From contig JAHJLF010000044.1 of NCBI GenBank assembly GCA_018821925.1, forward strand, positions 1 to 42,563: a DNA stretch of 42,563 bases, written 5' to 3'. Origin of the DNA: Candidatus Edwardsbacteria bacterium. Its GTDB lineage: Bacteria; Edwardsbacteria; AC1; EtOH8. The notes below the pieces were generated by a model, which was given only the letters and a program-made list of their open reading frames with translations, was not told the DNA's origin and did no database searches. The translations under genes were made by a program, and so were the position numbers. Below, in pieces: positions 1-7,189 of this stretch (its first letter is position 1; each line of letters opens with the position of its first letter).

Positions 1-1
1 C

Positions 2-463
2 ATGCCCGGGGCCGGCGGCCTGGATGTTTTGAAACAGATCATCGTACAATATCCTAAACTGCCGGTGCTGATCCTCAGTATGCATCCCGAAGAGGAATAT
101 GCCGTCCGGGCCATGAGGGCCGGAGCCATGGGATATCTAACCAAAAAAAGCGCTCCAGATGAACTGGGTATGGCGATAACCCGCATAACACAGGGGCGGC
201 GTTATATAACGTCATCGTTGGCGGAACAGCTGGCTGATGTATTGCATGGCGAGCATGAAGGAGCTCCGCACGAGTCATTAACGGACCGCGAATATCAAAT
301 ATTGCTTATGATCGCTTCGGGGAAAAGATTAAAGGAAATTGCCGGCGAACTGACGTTGAGCCCCAAAACCGTCAGCACCTATCGCGGGAGGATTTTAGAG
401 AAAATGGGCATCCAGAGCAATGCCGACATAGTCCGGTATGCCATAGAACATAAAATTAAGTAA
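2..463 (+). CDS. Response regulator, NarL/LuxR family (5'-truncated)
   Basis: This is the C-terminal part of a two-component transcription regulator; the true start lies upstream of the window. The visible protein opens at the MPG..G loop that follows the phosphoacceptor Asp in receiver domains, so that Asp is probably just outside the window. The rest of the receiver (about residues 1-70) keeps a Ser in LILS and the conserved Lys in LTKK. A LuxR-type helix-turn-helix occupies about residues 90-150 (LTDRE, IA..L.LS.KTVSTYR, K.GI). Such regulators bind DNA as dimers after phosphorylation by a sensor kinase; no kinase is visible here. A strong terminator follows. The family call is secure; the signal sensed is unknown. 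Confidence 0.9.
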   Translation: MPGAGGLDVLKQIIVQYPKLPVLILSMHPEEEYAVRAMRAGAMGYLTKKSAPDELGMAITRITQGRRYITSSLAEQLADVLHGEHEGAPHESLTDREYQILLMIASGKRLKEIAGELTLSPKTVSTYRGRILEKMGIQSNADIVRYAIEHKIK

Positions 464-504
464 AGTAAATGGGCGGTTTGTAAGTTAAACCTTACAAAAT
501 AAAA

Positions 505-547
505 GGGCGAAGCTTGATAATGAAAATCAGGTTTCGCTTCTTTCTTT
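505..547 (+). terminator. Rho-independent terminator after the response regulator
   Basis: A 14-bp stem (505-518 with 526-539, including four G-U pairs) closes a 7-nt loop and runs into a T-rich tract at 541-549. It separates the response regulator from pal. Confidence 0.85.
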
Positions 548-601
548 TTATGCCCGAAAATCATATAATTCATAAAACACAAAACAAACAAGGAGGATAA
601 A

Positions 602-1081
602 ATGTTAAAAGTTCACCTTACCATCGCGCTGGCTGTTCTCAGCATCGGCCTGTTCGGCTGCGCTAAAAAACAGACCCTGAAACAAGAGCCACCGGTTATG
701 CAAACGGAAGTTGCCCCGCCCCAGGCCAAAGAGGAGAAACCCGAGGCCAAGCTGGAAACCCAGACAATCTATTTCGATTTAGATTCTTACGAACTCCGCT
801 CCGACGCCAAGAACACACTCAACCGGGCCAGCGCCCAGCTGCGGAGCAATTCCAAAGTAGCCCTGTCAATAGAGGGTCATTGTGATGAAAGAGGCACCAC
901 CGAATATAATCTGGCCCTGGGAGAGAAAAGAGCCATGGCGGTAAAGGGATACCTGGTTAATTCGGGATTGGACAAAAGCCGGCTGCAGACCATAAGCTTC
1001 GGCGAGGAGAAGCCCGCGGCTGCCGGACACGATGAGCAAAGCTGGGCAAAAAACCGCCGGTCCGAGATTAAGGTAAAATAA
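602..1081 (+). CDS. pal: Peptidoglycan-associated lipoprotein (OmpA C-terminal domain)
   Basis: This is a 159-residue Pal-type lipoprotein that would sit in the inner leaflet of the outer membrane and bind peptidoglycan, helping the two membranes constrict together during division. The N-terminus is a lipoprotein signal with lipobox LFGC (Cys at about 20). A Lys/Glu/Pro-rich linker covers about 21-55, followed by an OmpA_C domain at about 56-159. Family-typical elements are YFDLDS, the EGHCDERGT diaminopimelate-binding loop, YN..LGE.RA and the terminal NRR.EI. The start is fixed by an AGGAGG site about 7 nt upstream. tolB and tolQRA are not adjacent, so the usual Tol-Pal operon is split. A possible TATAAT lies at 564-569, with no clear -35. 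Confidence 0.93.
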   Translation: MLKVHLTIALAVLSIGLFGCAKKQTLKQEPPVMQTEVAPPQAKEEKPEAKLETQTIYFDLDSYELRSDAKNTLNRASAQLRSNSKVALSIEGHCDERGTTEYNLALGEKRAMAVKGYLVNSGLDKSRLQTISFGEEKPAAAGHDEQSWAKNRRSEIKVK

Positions 1082-1119
1082 ACACACCCAGGAAATCAAA
1101 TTAAATAGGGGACTGCGCC

Positions 1120-1716
1120 ATGAAAAAGATTTTTGTTCCGATCATGCTTGCGATAGTGCTGGCCGTATCAAGCCAGGGGTGCTTTACCAGGGATGCTAAA
1201 TACGTTGAATATATAAAAACATTGGTCAGCGCCTACCAGCTTGAGGTCACCAGAATGGTGGATTTTGAAAACCAACCATTCAAGGGCCTGGAGAAAACAG
1301 TGGGATTCTATGAGGGCCATAAAAACAATCTCCGGCAGATCCAGAACAAGCTGACCATAGCGCCCAAGGCCAAGGCGGCAAAATGGAAAGAATTTCACAG
1401 CGAATTCGATGGATTGCTGAGCAGGGCTGTTGCATCGGGGGACATGACCAGCGGCGCCATGACATCCGCGTTGAATAAAATGAAAACCCCCAATGGCTCA
1501 AAACCCGCCACGGCTAAGAAGGGCAGCAAAGATAAGAGGGCGGCTGCGGCCTACCTGGCCAATAAATGGGAGACCCAGGCTTTTGATGCCAGGGGAGAAT
1601 TAATCCAAGCCAATGCCAAGGTAACTCCTTTCGTAACCACCGAATTTAAAATCGTGCTGCCCGATATTGGGGAAAATAAACTTTTGCCGCCATTGAAAAA
1701 ATGTTTCAAGCAATAA
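1120..1716 (+). CDS. Hypothetical lipoprotein
   Basis: I do not recognise this 198-residue protein. It begins with a charged n-region and hydrophobic stretch ending in SSQGC, a plausible lipobox with Cys at about 21. The mature part is mostly helical and Lys-rich, with a low-complexity basic section around residues 125-145 (PATAKKGSKDKRAAAA) and a hydrophobic C-terminal end. A weak purine-rich ribosome site (AGGGGA) precedes the ATG. It lies 38 nt after pal with no terminator between them, so the two are probably co-transcribed, and an envelope role linked to pal is a reasonable guess only. Confidence 0.75.
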   Translation: MKKIFVPIMLAIVLAVSSQGCFTRDAKYVEYIKTLVSAYQLEVTRMVDFENQPFKGLEKTVGFYEGHKNNLRQIQNKLTIAPKAKAAKWKEFHSEFDGLLSRAVASGDMTSGAMTSALNKMKTPNGSKPATAKKGSKDKRAAAAYLANKWETQAFDARGELIQANAKVTPFVTTEFKIVLPDIGENKLLPPLKKCFKQ

Positions 1717-1724
1717 AATTTCTC

Positions 1725-1753
1725 TTGACAAATTATACTATTTAGTATACAAT
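1725..1753 (+). promoter_or_regulatory. Near-consensus sigma-70 promoter for a non-coding RNA
   Basis: TTGACA at 1725-1730, a 17-nt spacer, then TACAAT at 1748-1753. This is one of the best promoters in the window. It faces a stretch with no substantial ORF; transcription would begin near 1760. Confidence 0.85.
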
Positions 1754-1759
1754 CCGGTT

Positions 1760-1945
1760 GTTCACAAAAACCTTTAACCTTTTAAGTGCCGAGAGGGCGA
1801 TAGCGAAAATGATTCACAATATGCTAAAATATCGCAATTTTGCAGTTCCCACGACCGACAGTGGGATAGGTGCGCCCATCGGCCATACCGTATGATCTAA
1901 CATCTTTTACGGGCCATGGGTTCACCAAAACCTGTGGCCTTTTTC
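1760..1945 (+). ncRNA. Candidate structured small RNA, about 185 nt, unknown family
   Basis: The transcript predicted from the promoter at 1725-1753 ends at an intrinsic terminator (stem 1912-1922 with 1929-1939, then T-rich). Inside it I can pair 1788-1799 with 1873-1883 (10 bp with an internal mismatch), 1847-1852 with 1861-1866 (6 bp, perfect), 1803-1808 with 1838-1843, and 1888-1892 with 1908-1912. The last pair touches the terminator stem by one base. The 5' end (1760-1773) repeats 13 of 14 bases of the terminator region (1920-1933), so an alternative fold is conceivable. The only ORF inside is 28 codons with a poorly placed ribosome site. Size would suit 6S RNA, but the fold is multi-stemmed rather than rod-like and I match no known family. 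A leader or riboswitch for downstream genes is the main alternative. Confidence 0.55.
1912..1945 (+). terminator. Terminator of the RNA candidate
   Basis: An 11-bp stem (1912-1922 with 1929-1939, two G-U pairs) with a 6-nt loop is followed by TTTTTCTTTT. Confidence 0.85.
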
Positions 1946-1976
1946 TTTTGCCATTTTATGATGGTAAATCCCCAAG

Positions 1977-2011
1977 AGCCGCAGGAAAACAATAAAACCT
2001 GTGGCTTTTTT
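1977..2011 (+). terminator. Second, partly duplicated terminator
   Basis: A 9-bp stem (1977-1985 with 1998-2006) with a 12-nt A-rich loop is followed by TTTTTATTTT. Its right arm and flank (AAAACCTGTGGC then T-run, from 1994) repeat those of the terminator 67 nt upstream, whereas the left arms differ. Confidence 0.8.
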
Positions 2012-2016
2012 ATTTT

Positions 2017-2062
2017 ACCTCCCCTAAATCCCCTCCTTGATCAAGGAGGGGAAAGGGGTGGT
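2017..2062. repeat. GC-rich palindromic intergenic repeat
   Basis: A perfect 22-nt palindrome at 2030-2051 (CCCCTCCTTGA and its complement) sits inside outer arms 2017-2025 and 2054-2062 that pair at 8 of 9 positions. The right edge AAGGGGTGGTCAG (2053-2065) recurs exactly, inverted, at 29669-29681, so this looks like a dispersed repeat family. No T-run follows, so it is not a standard terminator. Confidence 0.7.
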
Positions 2063-2126
2063 CAGTAGGCATCAAGATCAGCAATGAAAGATCAAATCAG
2101 CCACGACAACGAAGGGAGGACAGAAT

Positions 2127-2258
2127 ATGCTGAAGATATTGGAACAATGTCTTAAAAGCGACCCCGAATTGAATAAATTGTATGTGATCCAACAGATCAT
2201 TAATAACAGTTTTTTAAACGATTCACGGGTCATCAGCGGCAAATCGCTGCTGAATTGA
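2127..2258 (+). CDS. Small ORF, 43 residues, unknown function
   Basis: A 43-codon ORF starts at an ATG 7 nt after a strong GGGAGG ribosome site (2114-2119). The translation begins MLKILEQCLKSDPELNKLY and ends GKSLLN; it is soluble-looking, with alternating charged and hydrophobic residues compatible with two short helices. It stands in an otherwise non-coding gap, after two terminators and a palindrome and 79 nt before rsgA. An imperfectly explained 8-bp hairpin (2268-2275 with 2293-2300) follows its stop. I do not recognise the protein. The ribosome site is the main support; it could be a degraded gene remnant or a leader peptide for rsgA. Confidence 0.45.
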   Translation: MLKILEQCLKSDPELNKLYVIQQIINNSFLNDSRVISGKSLLN

Positions 2259-2337
2259 AAAATGGATATTGGCCTTTGAAAACATATAGAACAGGCCAAT
2301 AACCAAATCCCAAACAGCACAATAAGGAAATCATATA

Positions 2338-3456
2338 ATGGACCTAAAAAATATCGGATGGGATGCTTTCTTTGAGAGCCATCTGGAACGGATCATGAAA
2401 AATGCCAAGTACGATTACAAATTCCTGGTGGGACGGGTATCGGCTGTCCACAGCAACCTGTGCCGGGTACTGACCGAGGGCGGCGAGATCACCGCTCAAA
2501 TTTCGGGCAAAATGAGGGATAAAATCAACAACGAGATCATCTCTCCTACCGGAGAAATGCTGGATGCGGGCCTTCCGGCGGTAGGCGACTGGGTGGCGAT
2601 GATCCACGACCAACAACACAATTCCGGGATGATCAGGATGATCCTGCCCCGGAGGACCAAATTCTCCAGGAATGCGGCCGGCGTTACTTCGCAGGAGCAG
2701 GTAATAGCTTCCAATATCGATTATGCTTTTATCGTGGCCGCTCTCAATGCCGATTTCAACCCCAGCCGGATCGAGCGGTACCTGGTCACAACCTGGAACA
2801 GCGGGGCGGTCCCGGTGATACTGCTCAACAAGGCCGATCTCTGCGCCGAAGTTGACGCCAAGATCGTGGAAATGGAAAAGACCGCGGTGGGTGTCTCGGT
2901 TCATGCCATCAGCGCGGCCCAGGGGGAGGGATTGGAGCAGTTGACGCCATATCTTCAAAACGGCAGGACTTCGGTATTCATCGGCTCCTCGGGAGCGGGG
3001 AAGTCCACCATCATCAACCGGCTGCTGGGCCGGGATGTCATCAAGGTGGTGGAAACCTCCGATTACAAGGACAAGGGGCGGCACACCACCACCAGCCGGG
3101 AGATGTACATCCTAGAGGGCGGGGGCATCGTGATAGACTCCCCGGGCATGAGGGAGCTACAGCTTTGGGAGGGCGAACAGGGGCTTTCCGAAACCTTCGA
3201 CGATATCGAACAATTGGCCGCCCAATGCCGGTTCGGCGACTGCCGTCACCAGGAGGAGCCGGGCTGCGCCGTCAAATCGGCCCTGGAAAGCGGGGAGATA
3301 GACCGGACCAGGTACGAGAATTACCTGAAATTACAGCGCGAGCTTAAGCACCAGGAGACGCGAAACAATGCCAAGGTTCGGATGGAACAATCAAAGAGAT
3401 GGAAGAATATTGCCAAGACTAGGAGGCATTTAAATAAGGATTCAACAATCCGATGA
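2338..3456 (+). CDS. rsgA: Ribosome small subunit GTPase RsgA (YjeQ)
   Basis: RsgA is a circularly permuted GTPase that checks late maturation of the 30S subunit. In this 372-residue protein an N-terminal extension and OB-fold cover about 1-110. The GTPase motifs then appear in permuted order: G4 NKAD at 164-167, G5-like ISA, G1 GSSGAGKST at 216-224, G2 in the HTTTSRE segment and G3 DSPG at 267-270. The zinc site follows with Cys297, Cys302, His304 and Cys310, then a basic helical tail. The roughly 30-residue extension before the OB fold (GWDAFFESHL) is typical of the longer RsgA variants. A purine-rich site (AAGGAAA) precedes the ATG. Confidence 0.95.
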   Translation: MDLKNIGWDAFFESHLERIMKNAKYDYKFLVGRVSAVHSNLCRVLTEGGEITAQISGKMRDKINNEIISPTGEMLDAGLPAVGDWVAMIHDQQHNSGMIRMILPRRTKFSRNAAGVTSQEQVIASNIDYAFIVAALNADFNPSRIERYLVTTWNSGAVPVILLNKADLCAEVDAKIVEMEKTAVGVSVHAISAAQGEGLEQLTPYLQNGRTSVFIGSSGAGKSTIINRLLGRDVIKVVETSDYKDKGRHTTTSREMYILEGGGIVIDSPGMRELQLWEGEQGLSETFDDIEQLAAQCRFGDCRHQEEPGCAVKSALESGEIDRTRYENYLKLQRELKHQETRNNAKVRMEQSKRWKNIAKTRRHLNKDSTIR

Positions 3457-3510
3457 CTCTTCTCAAATCTCAAAATGGATTAATGCAAATCATAAAAAAG
3501 AGACAAACAT

Positions 3511-5298
3511 ATGTGGATGGATGATAGTTTAGACGATCTTCCCGCAGGGAAGAAAATATACGACCGGCAACTGTTAAAACGGATGTTACCATTACTGAAA
3601 CCATTTAAATTGAGCATCCTGGGCGGCGGGTTGATACTAGTGGTATCCTCCGGGCTAGGGCTGCTGCCCCCCCTGTTGCTCAAGCGGGCCATCGATGTCA
3701 ACATCGCCGGTTCGGATTTCAACGGGTTGCTTATAACCGTAGGGCTGTATGTTTTGCTGCAATTGGCCACCTTCGGGGTCAACTACCTGATGCTGGTGGT
3801 GCTGGAATCGCTGGGGGTCCGGATCGTATCGGCCCTGAAAGAGCAGTTGTTCGGCCATATGTTGGGATTGGACATCGCCTATTTCGATCAGCACCCGGTG
3901 GGCAGATTGATCGCCCGTGTGGAGAGCGATACCGAGGCCATCCGCCGACTGTTCACCTCCACCATGTTCACCGTGCTGGGGGCGGTGGTCAGCCTGGCCG
4001 GGATGGTGTTCATCATGATGAAGGTCAGCCTGCAACTTTTTCTGGCGATCTCCACCCTGATCCCGGTGATATTCCTGCTGACCGTTCTGTTCCAGAAAAA
4101 GGTCCGGCCGCTATTCCTGGTAGTCCGTAAAAAATACGCCGAGATCGTGGCCTATCTTACTGAGATGGTTCAGGGCATGAAAGTGATCCAGGCCTTCTCC
4201 CGGGAGAGTGCGGTCAAACAAAAGATGGCTCAGCTCAACCGGTCGTATATCAAGACCCTGCTGCCGGCCGATGTTCTGACCATGGGCTTCTTCAGCCTGG
4301 TGGGGGTATTCGAGATAACCGGGTTGGCCATCATCCTGACGGTGGGCGGAAATATGGTGGCCAAAGGACTTTTGACCATCGGGGCCATGGTGTTGTTTCT
4401 GGGGTATTTAAGACAATTCTTCATGCCGGTATACGCTTTCTCCGAGCAGGTTGGCATCATGCAGCGGGCCTTTGCCGCCGCCCAGCGGGTCTTTGAGATC
4501 ATGGATATCGAACCCAAGGTGATCAATGTTGTTTCAGGCAACAACTGGGACAATTTTAAAAATTCAATTGAATTCCAAGATGTCGATTTTTCCTATGTTA
4601 CCAGGGCCGGAAACGACGAGCCCGACTGGGTGCTGCGGGACATCAATTTCACCATCAGCAAGGGCGAGAAGATCGCCCTGGTGGGCGCCACCGGCGGGGG
4701 AAAAAGTTCCATCATCAATCTGATGTTGAGGTTCTACGACCCCCAGGCCGGTAGCATATCCATCGATGGGATCGACATCAAGGAAATACCCATAGACAAA
4801 CTGCGCCGGCACTTCGGCCTGGTGCTGCAGGATGTGTTCCTTTTTCCGGGAACGGTGCGGGAGAACCTGACCCTGGGCGCCGAGATGACCAGGGAGCAAT
4901 TAGACCGGGCTGTCGAGATATTGGGACTGCAGAGGATATTGGACAAGATGCCCAGCGGTCTGGAGTCGGAACTGACTGAAAGGGGGGCCAACCTCTCCCA
5001 GGGCGAGCGCCAGCTGGTATCCTTTGCCCGGGCCCTGGCCTTCGATCCGCAGATACTGATCCTGGACGAAGCCACCTCCTCGGTGGATCCCATGTCGGAA
5101 CGGCTGATCCAGCAGGGCATCAGAAGACTGCTGGAGGGTAGGACCGCAGTCATCGTGGCCCACCGGCTCTCCACTATACTGGACGCCGATAAAATAATGG
5201 TGATACATAAGGGGCGGATCGTGGAATCCGGCAGGCATCAGGAGCTGTTGGAGAAGAACGGTTATTACGCTAAATTGTACCGGATACAATTTGCTTGA
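3511..5298 (+). CDS. ABC exporter subunit 1 (fused TMD-NBD, canonical Walker B)
   Basis: This 595-residue half-transporter has about six membrane helices (residues 25-310) followed by a nucleotide-binding domain. Walker A is GATGGGKSS at 392-400. The signature motif is LSQGE at 495-499, deviating from LSGGQ. Walker B ends in Asp519 with catalytic Glu520 (DEATSSVD), and the H-loop His is in AHRLST. Together with the next gene it fits a type IV heterodimeric exporter of the LmrCD/TM287-288 kind, exporting drugs, lipids or peptides from the cytoplasm. The start is uncertain: ATG at 3511 or 3517, with no strong ribosome site. The substrate cannot be read from sequence. Confidence 0.92.
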   Translation: MWMDDSLDDLPAGKKIYDRQLLKRMLPLLKPFKLSILGGGLILVVSSGLGLLPPLLLKRAIDVNIAGSDFNGLLITVGLYVLLQLATFGVNYLMLVVLESLGVRIVSALKEQLFGHMLGLDIAYFDQHPVGRLIARVESDTEAIRRLFTSTMFTVLGAVVSLAGMVFIMMKVSLQLFLAISTLIPVIFLLTVLFQKKVRPLFLVVRKKYAEIVAYLTEMVQGMKVIQAFSRESAVKQKMAQLNRSYIKTLLPADVLTMGFFSLVGVFEITGLAIILTVGGNMVAKGLLTIGAMVLFLGYLRQFFMPVYAFSEQVGIMQRAFAAAQRVFEIMDIEPKVINVVSGNNWDNFKNSIEFQDVDFSYVTRAGNDEPDWVLRDINFTISKGEKIALVGATGGGKSSIINLMLRFYDPQAGSISIDGIDIKEIPIDKLRRHFGLVLQDVFLFPGTVRENLTLGAEMTREQLDRAVEILGLQRILDKMPSGLESELTERGANLSQGERQLVSFARALAFDPQILILDEATSSVDPMSERLIQQGIRRLLEGRTAVIVAHRLSTILDADKIMVIHKGRIVESGRHQELLEKNGYYAKLYRIQFA

Positions 5299-5317
5299 TA
5301 AGCATTATTAATTATGG

Positions 5318-5337
5318 ATTCCCGCCTGCGCGGGAAT
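5318..5337. repeat. ATTCCC-N8-GGGAAT hairpin repeat (copy 1)
   Basis: A perfect 8-bp stem (ATTCCCGC with GCGGGAAT) encloses a 4-nt loop. It lies between the two ABC genes and is flanked by TGG and GAC. A second copy in inverted orientation lies at 41313-41332. The layout resembles the 20-bp dRS3-type repeats described in Neisseria and similar intergenic repeats in other genomes. Confidence 0.75.
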
Positions 5338-5380
5338 GACACAAAGCATTTATTCAATAATAAAAATGTATTAGGTTTAT

Positions 5381-7189
5381 ATGTCAAACAAAATAGAAAA
5401 TAAAAAAGACACCGGCAGTTTAAAGCTCATCTTCGGGTGGCTGTACCGCTACTGGAGATCGCACAAACTAAAGCTTCTGGTGCTGATGATCATGACCCTG
5501 GTCTACACCGCGCTGGCCATCAGCTACCCCATCTTCTTCAAGATGGTGGTGGACGGTCTGATTAACAAGCTTCCGGCTCATCAGTTGAACCGCTACGTGT
5601 TGTATCTGTTGCTGTTGGGGGCCGGGGCGGCCTTAGTCAACTGGATACTGATGTCCACCCGGGGCTGGACCAACATGAATATCGAGGCCGAGTTCAGGAA
5701 CAACATCTTCGCCAACCTAACCAGGCTGGGGCCGTCAACCCTGTCCTCCTACCGGACCGGGGATGTGGTTACCCGGCTGACCGACGACCTGGCGGAGAAA
5801 CTATCCTGGTTCACCTGCTCCGGTCTGTTCCGGGCGGTGCAGGGAGTAGTCTTGCTGAGCTTTATATTGATAGTGATGTTCAGGATGAACCCCACCCTGG
5901 CGGCTTTTTCACTGCTACCGGTGCCGGTGGTAGCCGGACTGTTTCTGTTCAACGAGAGGACCTTCGAGAGACGCTATCAAAAATTGCAGGGCGCCATCTC
6001 GGCGGTCAACGATTTCCTGGAGGCCTGCTTCTCCGGTATCCGGGTGCTCAAGGTCTACAACCGTCAGGAGCACCAGAGACAGGGTTTCTCCCGGGCTATG
6101 GACCACCGGATAAAGGCCGAGGTCAGAAGCATCCAATCGGAGGGGCTGTTCAACTCGTCGAATATATTCATCGATCAGCTGGGAGTCCTGGTGGTGCTGC
6201 TGGTGGGCGGATACCTGGTCATCAAGGGAAGCCTGACCCTGGGCAGCTTCGTGGCTTTTAATACCTACAGCCTGATGCTGATCGAGCCCCTGTGGAACAT
6301 TGGGTATTTCTTCGTCTCGGCCAAGCGGGGCTCGGTGTCCTATGCCCGGGCCCATGAGTTGGAGATAGCTTTGGCTGAAGTCGGCGATCCGCCCAACCCT
6401 AAGGAAATATCATTCAATCGAACAATTGATTTTGAAAAGGTATCGTTCGGCTACGGAAAAAGCGACAAGCTGCAGCTTAAAGACATCAGTTTCAGCGTTG
6501 ACAAGGGGCAAAAGGTGGCCCTGATGGGAGAGGTGGGCTGCGGCAAGACCACCCTGGTGCACCTGCTGCTTCGCCTGCACGATCCGACTTCCGGCTCGGT
6601 CAGTATTGATGGCACCGATATAAAAGATTTCAGCCTGGCCGGGCTGCGCAGCATCATAGGCTACGCCCCGCAGGAGGCCTTGCTGTTCTCGGACAGCATC
6701 CTCAACAACGTCATCTTCCACCGGGAAGAGGTGGATAATGACCGGGCGGTGGAGGCCGGGCGCATCTCCCAGCTGGAGAAGGAGGTAAAAGGCTTTGCTA
6801 AGGGATATGACACTCTTATCGGTCAGCGCGGCACCAGCCTGTCCGGTGGCCAGAAACAGCGGGCATCACTGGCCCGGGCCATAGTGGAGAGGATAACCCA
6901 GGGGCATCCCAAAATATTGATCCTGGATGACATCACCTCGGCTTTGGATGGCACCACCGAGGCCCTGGTCTGGCAGGAGCTCAATGAAAAACTGCCGAAC
7001 GTCACCTGTTTCATCATTTCGCACCGGACCTCCACCATCGAGCGGGCCGACAAGATACTGGTCCTGAAGGATGGGCAGATCGTGGAGCAGGGCAGCCATC
7101 AGGAGCTGATGGCCAACGACGGGTACTACGTGACCTTGCGGGAGAAGGAGAAGCTCCAGGAGAACGGGAATGGAAATGTTGTAAAATAA
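5381..7189 (+). CDS. ABC exporter subunit 2 (fused TMD-NBD, degenerate Walker B)
   Basis: This is the 602-residue partner of the preceding gene: membrane domain at about 20-330, then a nucleotide-binding domain. Walker A is GEVGCGKTT at 383-391 and the signature is canonical LSGGQ at 487-491. In Walker B the catalytic Glu is replaced by Asp517 (LDDITSALD). The H-loop His is in SHRTST. In a heterodimer, this subunit's Walker motifs face subunit 1's altered LSQGE, giving one degenerate site, while subunit 1's Walker motifs face this LSGGQ, giving one active site. The start has only a weak ribosome site. A terminator follows. Confidence 0.92.
   Translation: MSNKIENKKDTGSLKLIFGWLYRYWRSHKLKLLVLMIMTLVYTALAISYPIFFKMVVDGLINKLPAHQLNRYVLYLLLLGAGAALVNWILMSTRGWTNMNIEAEFRNNIFANLTRLGPSTLSSYRTGDVVTRLTDDLAEKLSWFTCSGLFRAVQGVVLLSFILIVMFRMNPTLAAFSLLPVPVVAGLFLFNERTFERRYQKLQGAISAVNDFLEACFSGIRVLKVYNRQEHQRQGFSRAMDHRIKAEVRSIQSEGLFNSSNIFIDQLGVLVVLLVGGYLVIKGSLTLGSFVAFNTYSLMLIEPLWNIGYFFVSAKRGSVSYARAHELEIALAEVGDPPNPKEISFNRTIDFEKVSFGYGKSDKLQLKDISFSVDKGQKVALMGEVGCGKTTLVHLLLRLHDPTSGSVSIDGTDIKDFSLAGLRSIIGYAPQEALLFSDSILNNVIFHREEVDNDRAVEAGRISQLEKEVKGFAKGYDTLIGQRGTSLSGGQKQRASLARAIVERITQGHPKILILDDITSALDGTTEALVWQELNEKLPNVTCFIISHRTSTIERADKILVLKDGQIVEQGSHQELMANDGYYVTLREKEKLQENGNGNVVK

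Follow-up and report, generated by a model that had tools for sequence, protein, structure and literature searches.

We propose that positions 1725-2016 of the window are the leader of an operon consisting of ORF2, rsgA and two ABC half-exporter genes, and that this leader is, with good probability, a ribosome-mediated transcription attenuator in which two terminators operate in relay. The window is the whole stretch of 42,563 nucleotides analysed here, from contig JAHJLF010000044.1 of a Candidatus Edwardsbacteria genome (assembly GCA_018821925.1); all features described below lie on its forward strand. Candidatus Edwardsbacteria is, to our knowledge, a candidate phylum without a cultured member. 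The attenuator reading is based on conservation, synteny, complementarity and folding under simulated ribosome positions. If it is true, the candidate phylum gains a predicted translation-stress response in which one operon combines a ribosome-assembly GTPase with a multidrug-type exporter. Further, the textbook four-segment attenuator would be extended to six segments, and the shared arm of tandem terminators in leaders of this kind would be explained.

Promoter, terminators and fold

The leader starts with a promoter, TTGACA (1725-1730) and TACAAT (1748-1753) at a spacing of 17 nt (1725-1753), which matches the consensus in 11 of 12 bases and ranks first among sigma-70-like sites in a scan of positions 1-6000. 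The original prediction had called it near-perfect. In relatives the hexamers and the 17-nt spacing are kept despite diverged spacer sequences. In genomes G004 and G007, which retain TTGACA, 17 nt and TACAAT, the spacers are entirely different. The -10 box reads TAAAAT in one of ten genomes (G008); the contig of G005 begins at the -10 box TATAAT, and its -35 box therefore lies outside the visible sequence. Transcription would be expected to start around 1760.

Two intrinsic terminators are positioned between a leader ORF and the structural genes in all ten genomes. T1 (1912-1948) has its left arm at 1912-1922 and its right arm at 1929-1939, designated segments 3 and 4; T2 (1977-2016) has its left arm at 1977-1985 and its right arm at 1998-2006, segments 5 and 6. 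Each is followed by a U-rich run, and transcription presumably terminates at either of them. That the second terminator shares the right arm of the first had been noticed earlier and is correct; T1 and T2 contain 26-nt copies at a distance of 67 nt, and the right arms are copies of each other. The predicted stable folding is likewise confirmed. The RNA 1760-1947 is more stable than its dinucleotide shuffles (z -2.7), and the 255-nt RNA 1760-2014 is more stable than 200 of 200 such shuffles (z -4.8). A dispersed palindromic repeat, CCTCCCCTAAATCCCCTCCTTGATCAAGGAGGGGAAAGGGG, which has many copies in the source genome and in the relatives, occupies 2017-2062. It is located between T2 and ORF2 in the source genome and in G001 and is absent from this place in G002 and G003.

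A DNA search found the leader region 92-93% identical in three sister species, with weaker matches in five further family members. A covariance model was built from nine family genomes, with G005 left out of the building; it recovers the G005 copy with an E value of 7.8e-8. This left-out genome possesses the leader ORF in the same frame, both pairings of the ON state described below, ORF2 and rsgA. All in all, the leader with promoter, T1 and T2 is present once per genome in ten of ten genomes of this Candidatus Edwardsbacteria family, and the genomes compared span four genera. A multi-copy element was considered and rejected; the DNA query finds one copy in the source genome and the model finds one in each of the ten.

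A leader ORF conserved in position and frame

The original prediction had stated that no gene is inside the RNA. This overlooked an ORF of 28 codons at 1809-1895, MIHNMLKYRNFAVPTTDSGIGAPIGHTV, with the stop codon TGA. An ORF of 26-28 codons is present at the same position in all ten genomes; it begins at an aligned ATG, and position, length and frame are conserved throughout. The distance from its end to T1 is 16-26 nt across genomes. Landmarks within the ORF stay in frame, their spacings differing by 3 or 6 nt, and the loop of a hairpin located inside the ORF (P4, 1847-1866) differs between clades in steps of 3 nt. For any single genome, an ORF of this length arises in about 6-7% of shuffled sequences. 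The ribosome-binding site is weak except in the genus comprising G006, G008 and G009.

The peptides themselves have diverged: MIHNMLKYRNFAVPTTDSGIGAPIGHTV in the source genome, MINHTIIIANLLPTDDFSGIVAPPCHS in G009, MEKILLIVRSTDPTNGGTGAPVGQCS in G004 and MRMLPYIFLLSDTGNGRRGAPIGRYS in G005. Amino-acid changes are as frequent as silent changes, i.e., the peptide sequence is under no visible constraint. The GAP(I/V)G at its end coincides with an RNA strand, segment 2, which participates in the pairings discussed below. It seems that the act of translation was kept rather than the peptide. The ORF is taken here as probably translated. Two genera use TGA as its stop codon and two use TAA, and for this reason sensing of a release factor was not considered further.

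Competing pairings

Segment 1 (1786-1799) carries the 5' strands of two stems, P1 (1788-1792) and P2 (1795-1799), and overlaps the region in which the leader ORF has its weak ribosome-binding site; a G-rich stretch precedes the ORF in this region. Segment 2 (1873-1884) is the 3' strand of P2 and P1, and the two stems join 1788-1799 to 1873-1883. P1, P2 and P4 recur across genera. Within segment 2 the strand 1875-1884, CCCAU(C)GGCC, pairs with the T1 left arm; throughout the ten genomes, this arm has no better partner upstream in the leader. The antiterminator 2:3 and T1 are mutually exclusive, both using the T1 left arm. Similarly, the right arm of T1 (1931-1938) is complementary to the left arm of T2 (1978-1985), and in ten of ten genomes the two arms of T2 pair with each other less strongly than this.

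How unusual are these complementarities? The 2:3 duplex is rarer than 4% among shuffles in the source genome, G002, G003, G004 and G007; in the genus of G006, G008 and G009 (about 20-29%) and in G001 (26%) it does not exceed shuffles. In G004 and G007 the T1 left arm has changed from AUGGG to ACGGG and segment 2 from CCCAU to CCCGU, i.e., an A-U pair is replaced by G-C. In G006, G008 and G009 a U-to-C change loses one pair of T1 and strengthens the pairing of the T1 right arm with the T2 left arm. Over the family alignment 93.5% of cells are paired in the ON pairings compared to 27-44% when these are slid, and the covariation score is equalled in 4 of 500 shuffles, a test which ignores relatedness. 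The covariation comprises one both-sided change and one series G-C/G-U/A-U, and it is limited to these because there are only four genera. The search for compensatory changes in relatives, which had been suggested at the outset, thus yields covariation for the ON pairs but none for the OFF structure alone in the family alignment; an RNAalifold consensus over the whole alignment contains few compensatory changes.

An alternative fold which competes with the terminator, as foreseen in the original prediction, does exist. The competitor, however, is the strand 1875-1884 of the ORF and not the 5' end of the RNA to which the role had been assigned. The 5' repeat of the T1 loop and arm does match in 13 of 14 bases in the source genome, yet this drops to 10-11 of 14 in the sister species and to 8-9 of 14 in the other genera. 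Pairing of the 5' leader with the T1 left arm is reached by 292-935 of 1000 shuffles and is unconserved.

The downstream operon

T2 is followed at a distance of about 110 nt by ORF2 (2127-2258), which codes for a protein of 43 aa and has a strong ribosome-binding site. An ORF of 41-43 aa occupies this place in nine of ten genomes, with a 38-aa variant in G003; the versions of G004, G007 and G005 barely resemble that of the source genome. ORF2 has no match in Pfam or NCBIfam. Next is rsgA (2338-3456), the gene of the ribosome small-subunit biogenesis GTPase (Pfam PF03193, E 2.7e-54; TIGR00157 above cut-off). Two ABC half-exporters complete the operon: ABC1 (3511-5298) with a canonical Walker B motif, ILILDE, is close to TmrA and BmrD/YheH, and ABC2 (5381-7189) with a degenerate Walker B, ILILDD, has BmrC/YheI as its best match among bacterial half-transporters (E 5e-89). 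A degenerate Walker B (LDD) is expected of one partner in heterodimeric exporters, and as a pair ABC1 and ABC2 are similar to TmrAB and BmrCD, both heterodimeric multidrug exporters. ABC1 and ABC2 are thus putative drug exporters, which the leader would control.

The order ORF2, usually rsgA, then two ABC half-exporters is kept; ABC1 and ABC2 are found behind the leader in the source genome and wherever the examined stretch reaches far enough. The contig of G003 stops before rsgA, and the stretch examined in G005 covers rsgA only and not the ABC genes. In G004 and G007, which retain the leader, rsgA is absent from the operon and ORF2 is followed by the ABC genes. G001 and G002 have a GNAT acetyltransferase gene between the ABC genes (L039:9730-10284 and L040:9667-10221) which the source genome does not have. 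A different picture emerges upstream, where the genes vary. As read from translations, these are a DUF gene in the source genome and G003, a cation-efflux-like gene in G001 and G002, divergent genes in G008 and G009 and an arginine-repressor-like (argR-like) gene in G006. In G004 and G007 (L034, L038) a tRNA-Arg(TCG) gene is located directly 5' of the leader promoter. The downstream genes are kept and the upstream genes changed, therefore the leader looks like a cis-regulatory element.

Could the RNA nevertheless be a trans-acting small RNA, with a promoter and terminator of its own and with incidental downstream neighbours? Promoter and terminator are both strong and the fold is stable, and the free-standing position, with variable upstream genes and the gap between T2 and ORF2, would suit such an RNA. 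Yet synteny is retained precisely on the downstream side. TTGACA-17-TACAAT is the sole promoter-like site of its quality ahead of ORF2-rsgA-ABC-ABC, none comparable being found between T2 and rsgA, i.e., the operon would be left without a comparable promoter. A conserved leader ORF and two conserved alternative pairings also speak against a small RNA. We consider it unlikely, and the orphan RNA of the original prediction very unlikely, given that the downstream genes are conserved and that no other promoter-like site of comparable quality precedes them.

A proposed ribosome-dependent switch

In the attenuator reading the leader would alternate between two states. The OFF state would comprise the pairings 1:2 (P1/P2), 3:4 (T1) and 5:6 (T2), the ON state 2:3 (1875-1884 with 1912-1920) and 4:5 (1931-1938 with 1978-1985). 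A ribosome which completes the leader ORF would mask segment 2; T1 and then T2 would form, and transcription would stop. If the ribosome were instead held at the ORF start or close to it, it would mask segment 1 and leave segment 2 free to capture the T1 left arm. This in turn would free the T1 right arm to capture the left arm of T2, both terminators would fail together, and the exporter operon would be transcribed. A single decision of the ribosome could in this manner open both terminators. With no ribosome at all, P1/P2 is predicted to leave T1 mostly formed in most genomes. The signal would most likely be slowed translation, e.g., by ribosome-targeting antibiotics. Slowed or blocked translation is suggested by the analogy to the bmrBCD attenuator and by the company of rsgA.

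Folding with simulated ribosomes is consistent with such a switch. In a model which blocks 30 nt and folds the RNA up to the end of T1 at equilibrium, and which differs in this respect from co-transcriptional folding, the probability of T1 across ten genomes is 0.00-0.83 with the ribosome at the start codon and 0.91-1.00 at the stop codon. The mean swing between these positions is 0.71. In shuffled leaders it is 0.04 on average and 0.24 at most (150 trials), and the value of each genome is reached by at most 3 of 150 shuffles. The left-out genome G005 behaves like the others; a small swing is predicted for G007 (0.16), G002 (0.31) and G004 (0.41). When folding is extended to cover the whole of T2, the state of T2 tracks that of T1 in almost every case, as in a relay. 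If just one ribosome is placed on codons 3-11 of the source-genome ORF, T1 still dominates as long as T2 has not been made; therefore induction is predicted mainly for other stall positions. According to the model these would be stalls at initiation or near codons 13-15, or situations in which the upstream strand is also covered.

Sensors other than the ribosome

A leader which binds a ligand or a protein would account for part of these observations. It might be a riboswitch or an autoregulatory element, responding, e.g., to RsgA or a ribosomal protein; P1, P2 and P4 would then be the sensor and the ORF an accident. The genera share these stems, which act on segment 2; the product of rsgA is an RNA-binding ribosome factor, and the leader-peptide sequence is weakly constrained. 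The middle part of this putative sensor, however, shows no conservation from genus to genus, yet the reading frame is kept. G004 and G007 retain the leader without having rsgA in the operon. Further, an Rfam covariance search of the leader returned nothing at gathering score; the best relaxed match had an E value of 0.7, and the families were unrelated. A binding leader is in our estimation improbable.

The same search disposes of the named RNA families. The earlier statement that the RNA fits no family which can be named holds, and a riboswitch, a T-box or any other Rfam family is rejected for want of a match at gathering score. 6S RNA (RF00013), similar in length at near 185 nt, had been considered possible by size. 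It is excluded; the family model does not match the leader, and the source genome has a separate bona fide 6S gene at G000:C74:2989-3165 (84 bits). Relatives which carry the leader also have an ordinary 6S gene elsewhere. A tRNA or tmRNA is rejected, none being found in the window.

It is also conceivable that the attenuator responds to charged tRNA of one particular amino acid, having been inherited from a biosynthetic operon. The tandem architecture is shared with trpE leaders of other groups, and some leader peptides contain runs of Ile, Leu and Val (IIIANLL, ILLIV). However, the peptide of the source genome has no such run and no residue is enriched in the leader peptides of all four genera, nor is there a biosynthetic gene in the operon. 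A check of leader peptides and downstream genes found no combination of a cognate-codon run with a matching biosynthetic operon. We give this possibility hardly any credence. An attenuator which responds to translation as such, and which relays the decision from T1 to T2, is the reading we prefer.

The relay pattern in other genomes

A relay is recognizable by its pattern and can consequently be searched for across genomes. We ran such a pattern on 290 genomes; it is restricted to GGCC-type arms and says nothing on the frequency of the design. It gave seven sites compared to one for the reversed pattern. Of the seven, four are located ahead of trpE; the leader peptide contains WWW or WWWW in three, and the fourth is cut by the contig end. 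Two (L080 and L081, about 1405-1600) precede a gene for 2-amino-3,7-dideoxy-D-threo-hept-6-ulosonate synthase. Trp, Phe and Tyr abound in their leader peptides (NWFWFYYWWG and YRWFWFYFG), and neither leader has an Rfam match. The seventh (L079:1405-1620, genome G111 of another group) has a leader ORF, MLSRLAKLSIGLLDEGGVCP, of no special composition ahead of a DrrA-like ABC ATPase of the daunorubicin-resistance type, possibly an independent case of the same exporter control. Thus, trpE or an aromatic-pathway gene follows six of seven sites, and in five of these six a cognate-rich leader peptide is visible. The pattern itself demands a match between the T1 right arm and the T2 left arm, and this match is therefore no independent evidence; the retrieval of attenuators whose leader peptides are cognate is. 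The best matches of the covariance model outside the family are trp leaders as well, with E values of 4e-4 to 2e-3 per genome, which are not significant over 290 genomes.

As a tentative generalization, which we would stop just short of calling probable, relay attenuation may be a distinct and widespread six-segment design in which the right arm of T1 is the antiterminator of T2 and which recurs in several unrelated bacterial groups, serving amino-acid operons and translation-stress exporters alike.

Comparison with known systems

In the literature searched for tandem-terminator relays we found only mgtCBR, which has tandem attenuators of another kind, and the rimP leader with its second tandem terminator (Naville and Gautheret, 2010, PMC2965389). 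The latter shows that a single leader can have two terminators in tandem; the passage on it mentions neither a leader peptide nor a relay between the terminators. Attenuators of the trp and his type, with pairings 1:2, 2:3 and 3:4, correspond to segments 1 to 4 and to the ribosome logic of the Edwardsbacteria leader. Differing from these, its leader peptide has no run of a single residue, and the additional pairings 4:5 and 5:6 would carry the decision to a second terminator. The tandem trpE and aromatic leaders (L077, L078, L080-L083) come closer in architecture, having two terminators with complementarity between the right arm of T1 and the left arm of T2, a short leader peptide and a regulated gene. 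Their peptides, however, carry WWW, WWWW or WFWFYYWW and their genes are biosynthetic; we claim no sequence homology.

The closest system in its logic is, we take it, the bmrBCD attenuator of Bacillus subtilis, in which a translated small ORF, a terminator, an antiterminator and an anti-antiterminator precede a heterodimeric multidrug ABC exporter (PMC4191407). By this analogy the Edwardsbacteria leader would be an extension from four to six segments. Common to both are a small leader ORF, competing hairpins and a downstream ABC pair of the BmrC/BmrD type, ABC2 being most similar to BmrC/YheI and ABC1 having BmrD/YheH among its best matches. The differences are equally clear. The terminator of bmrB is single and inside the ORF (PMC4191407), whereas here the ORF ends before T1, and T2 is tied to T1 by the shared arm. 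In Edwardsbacteria ORF2 and rsgA intervene between leader and exporter genes, and a response to antibiotics would be expected by analogy to bmrBCD.
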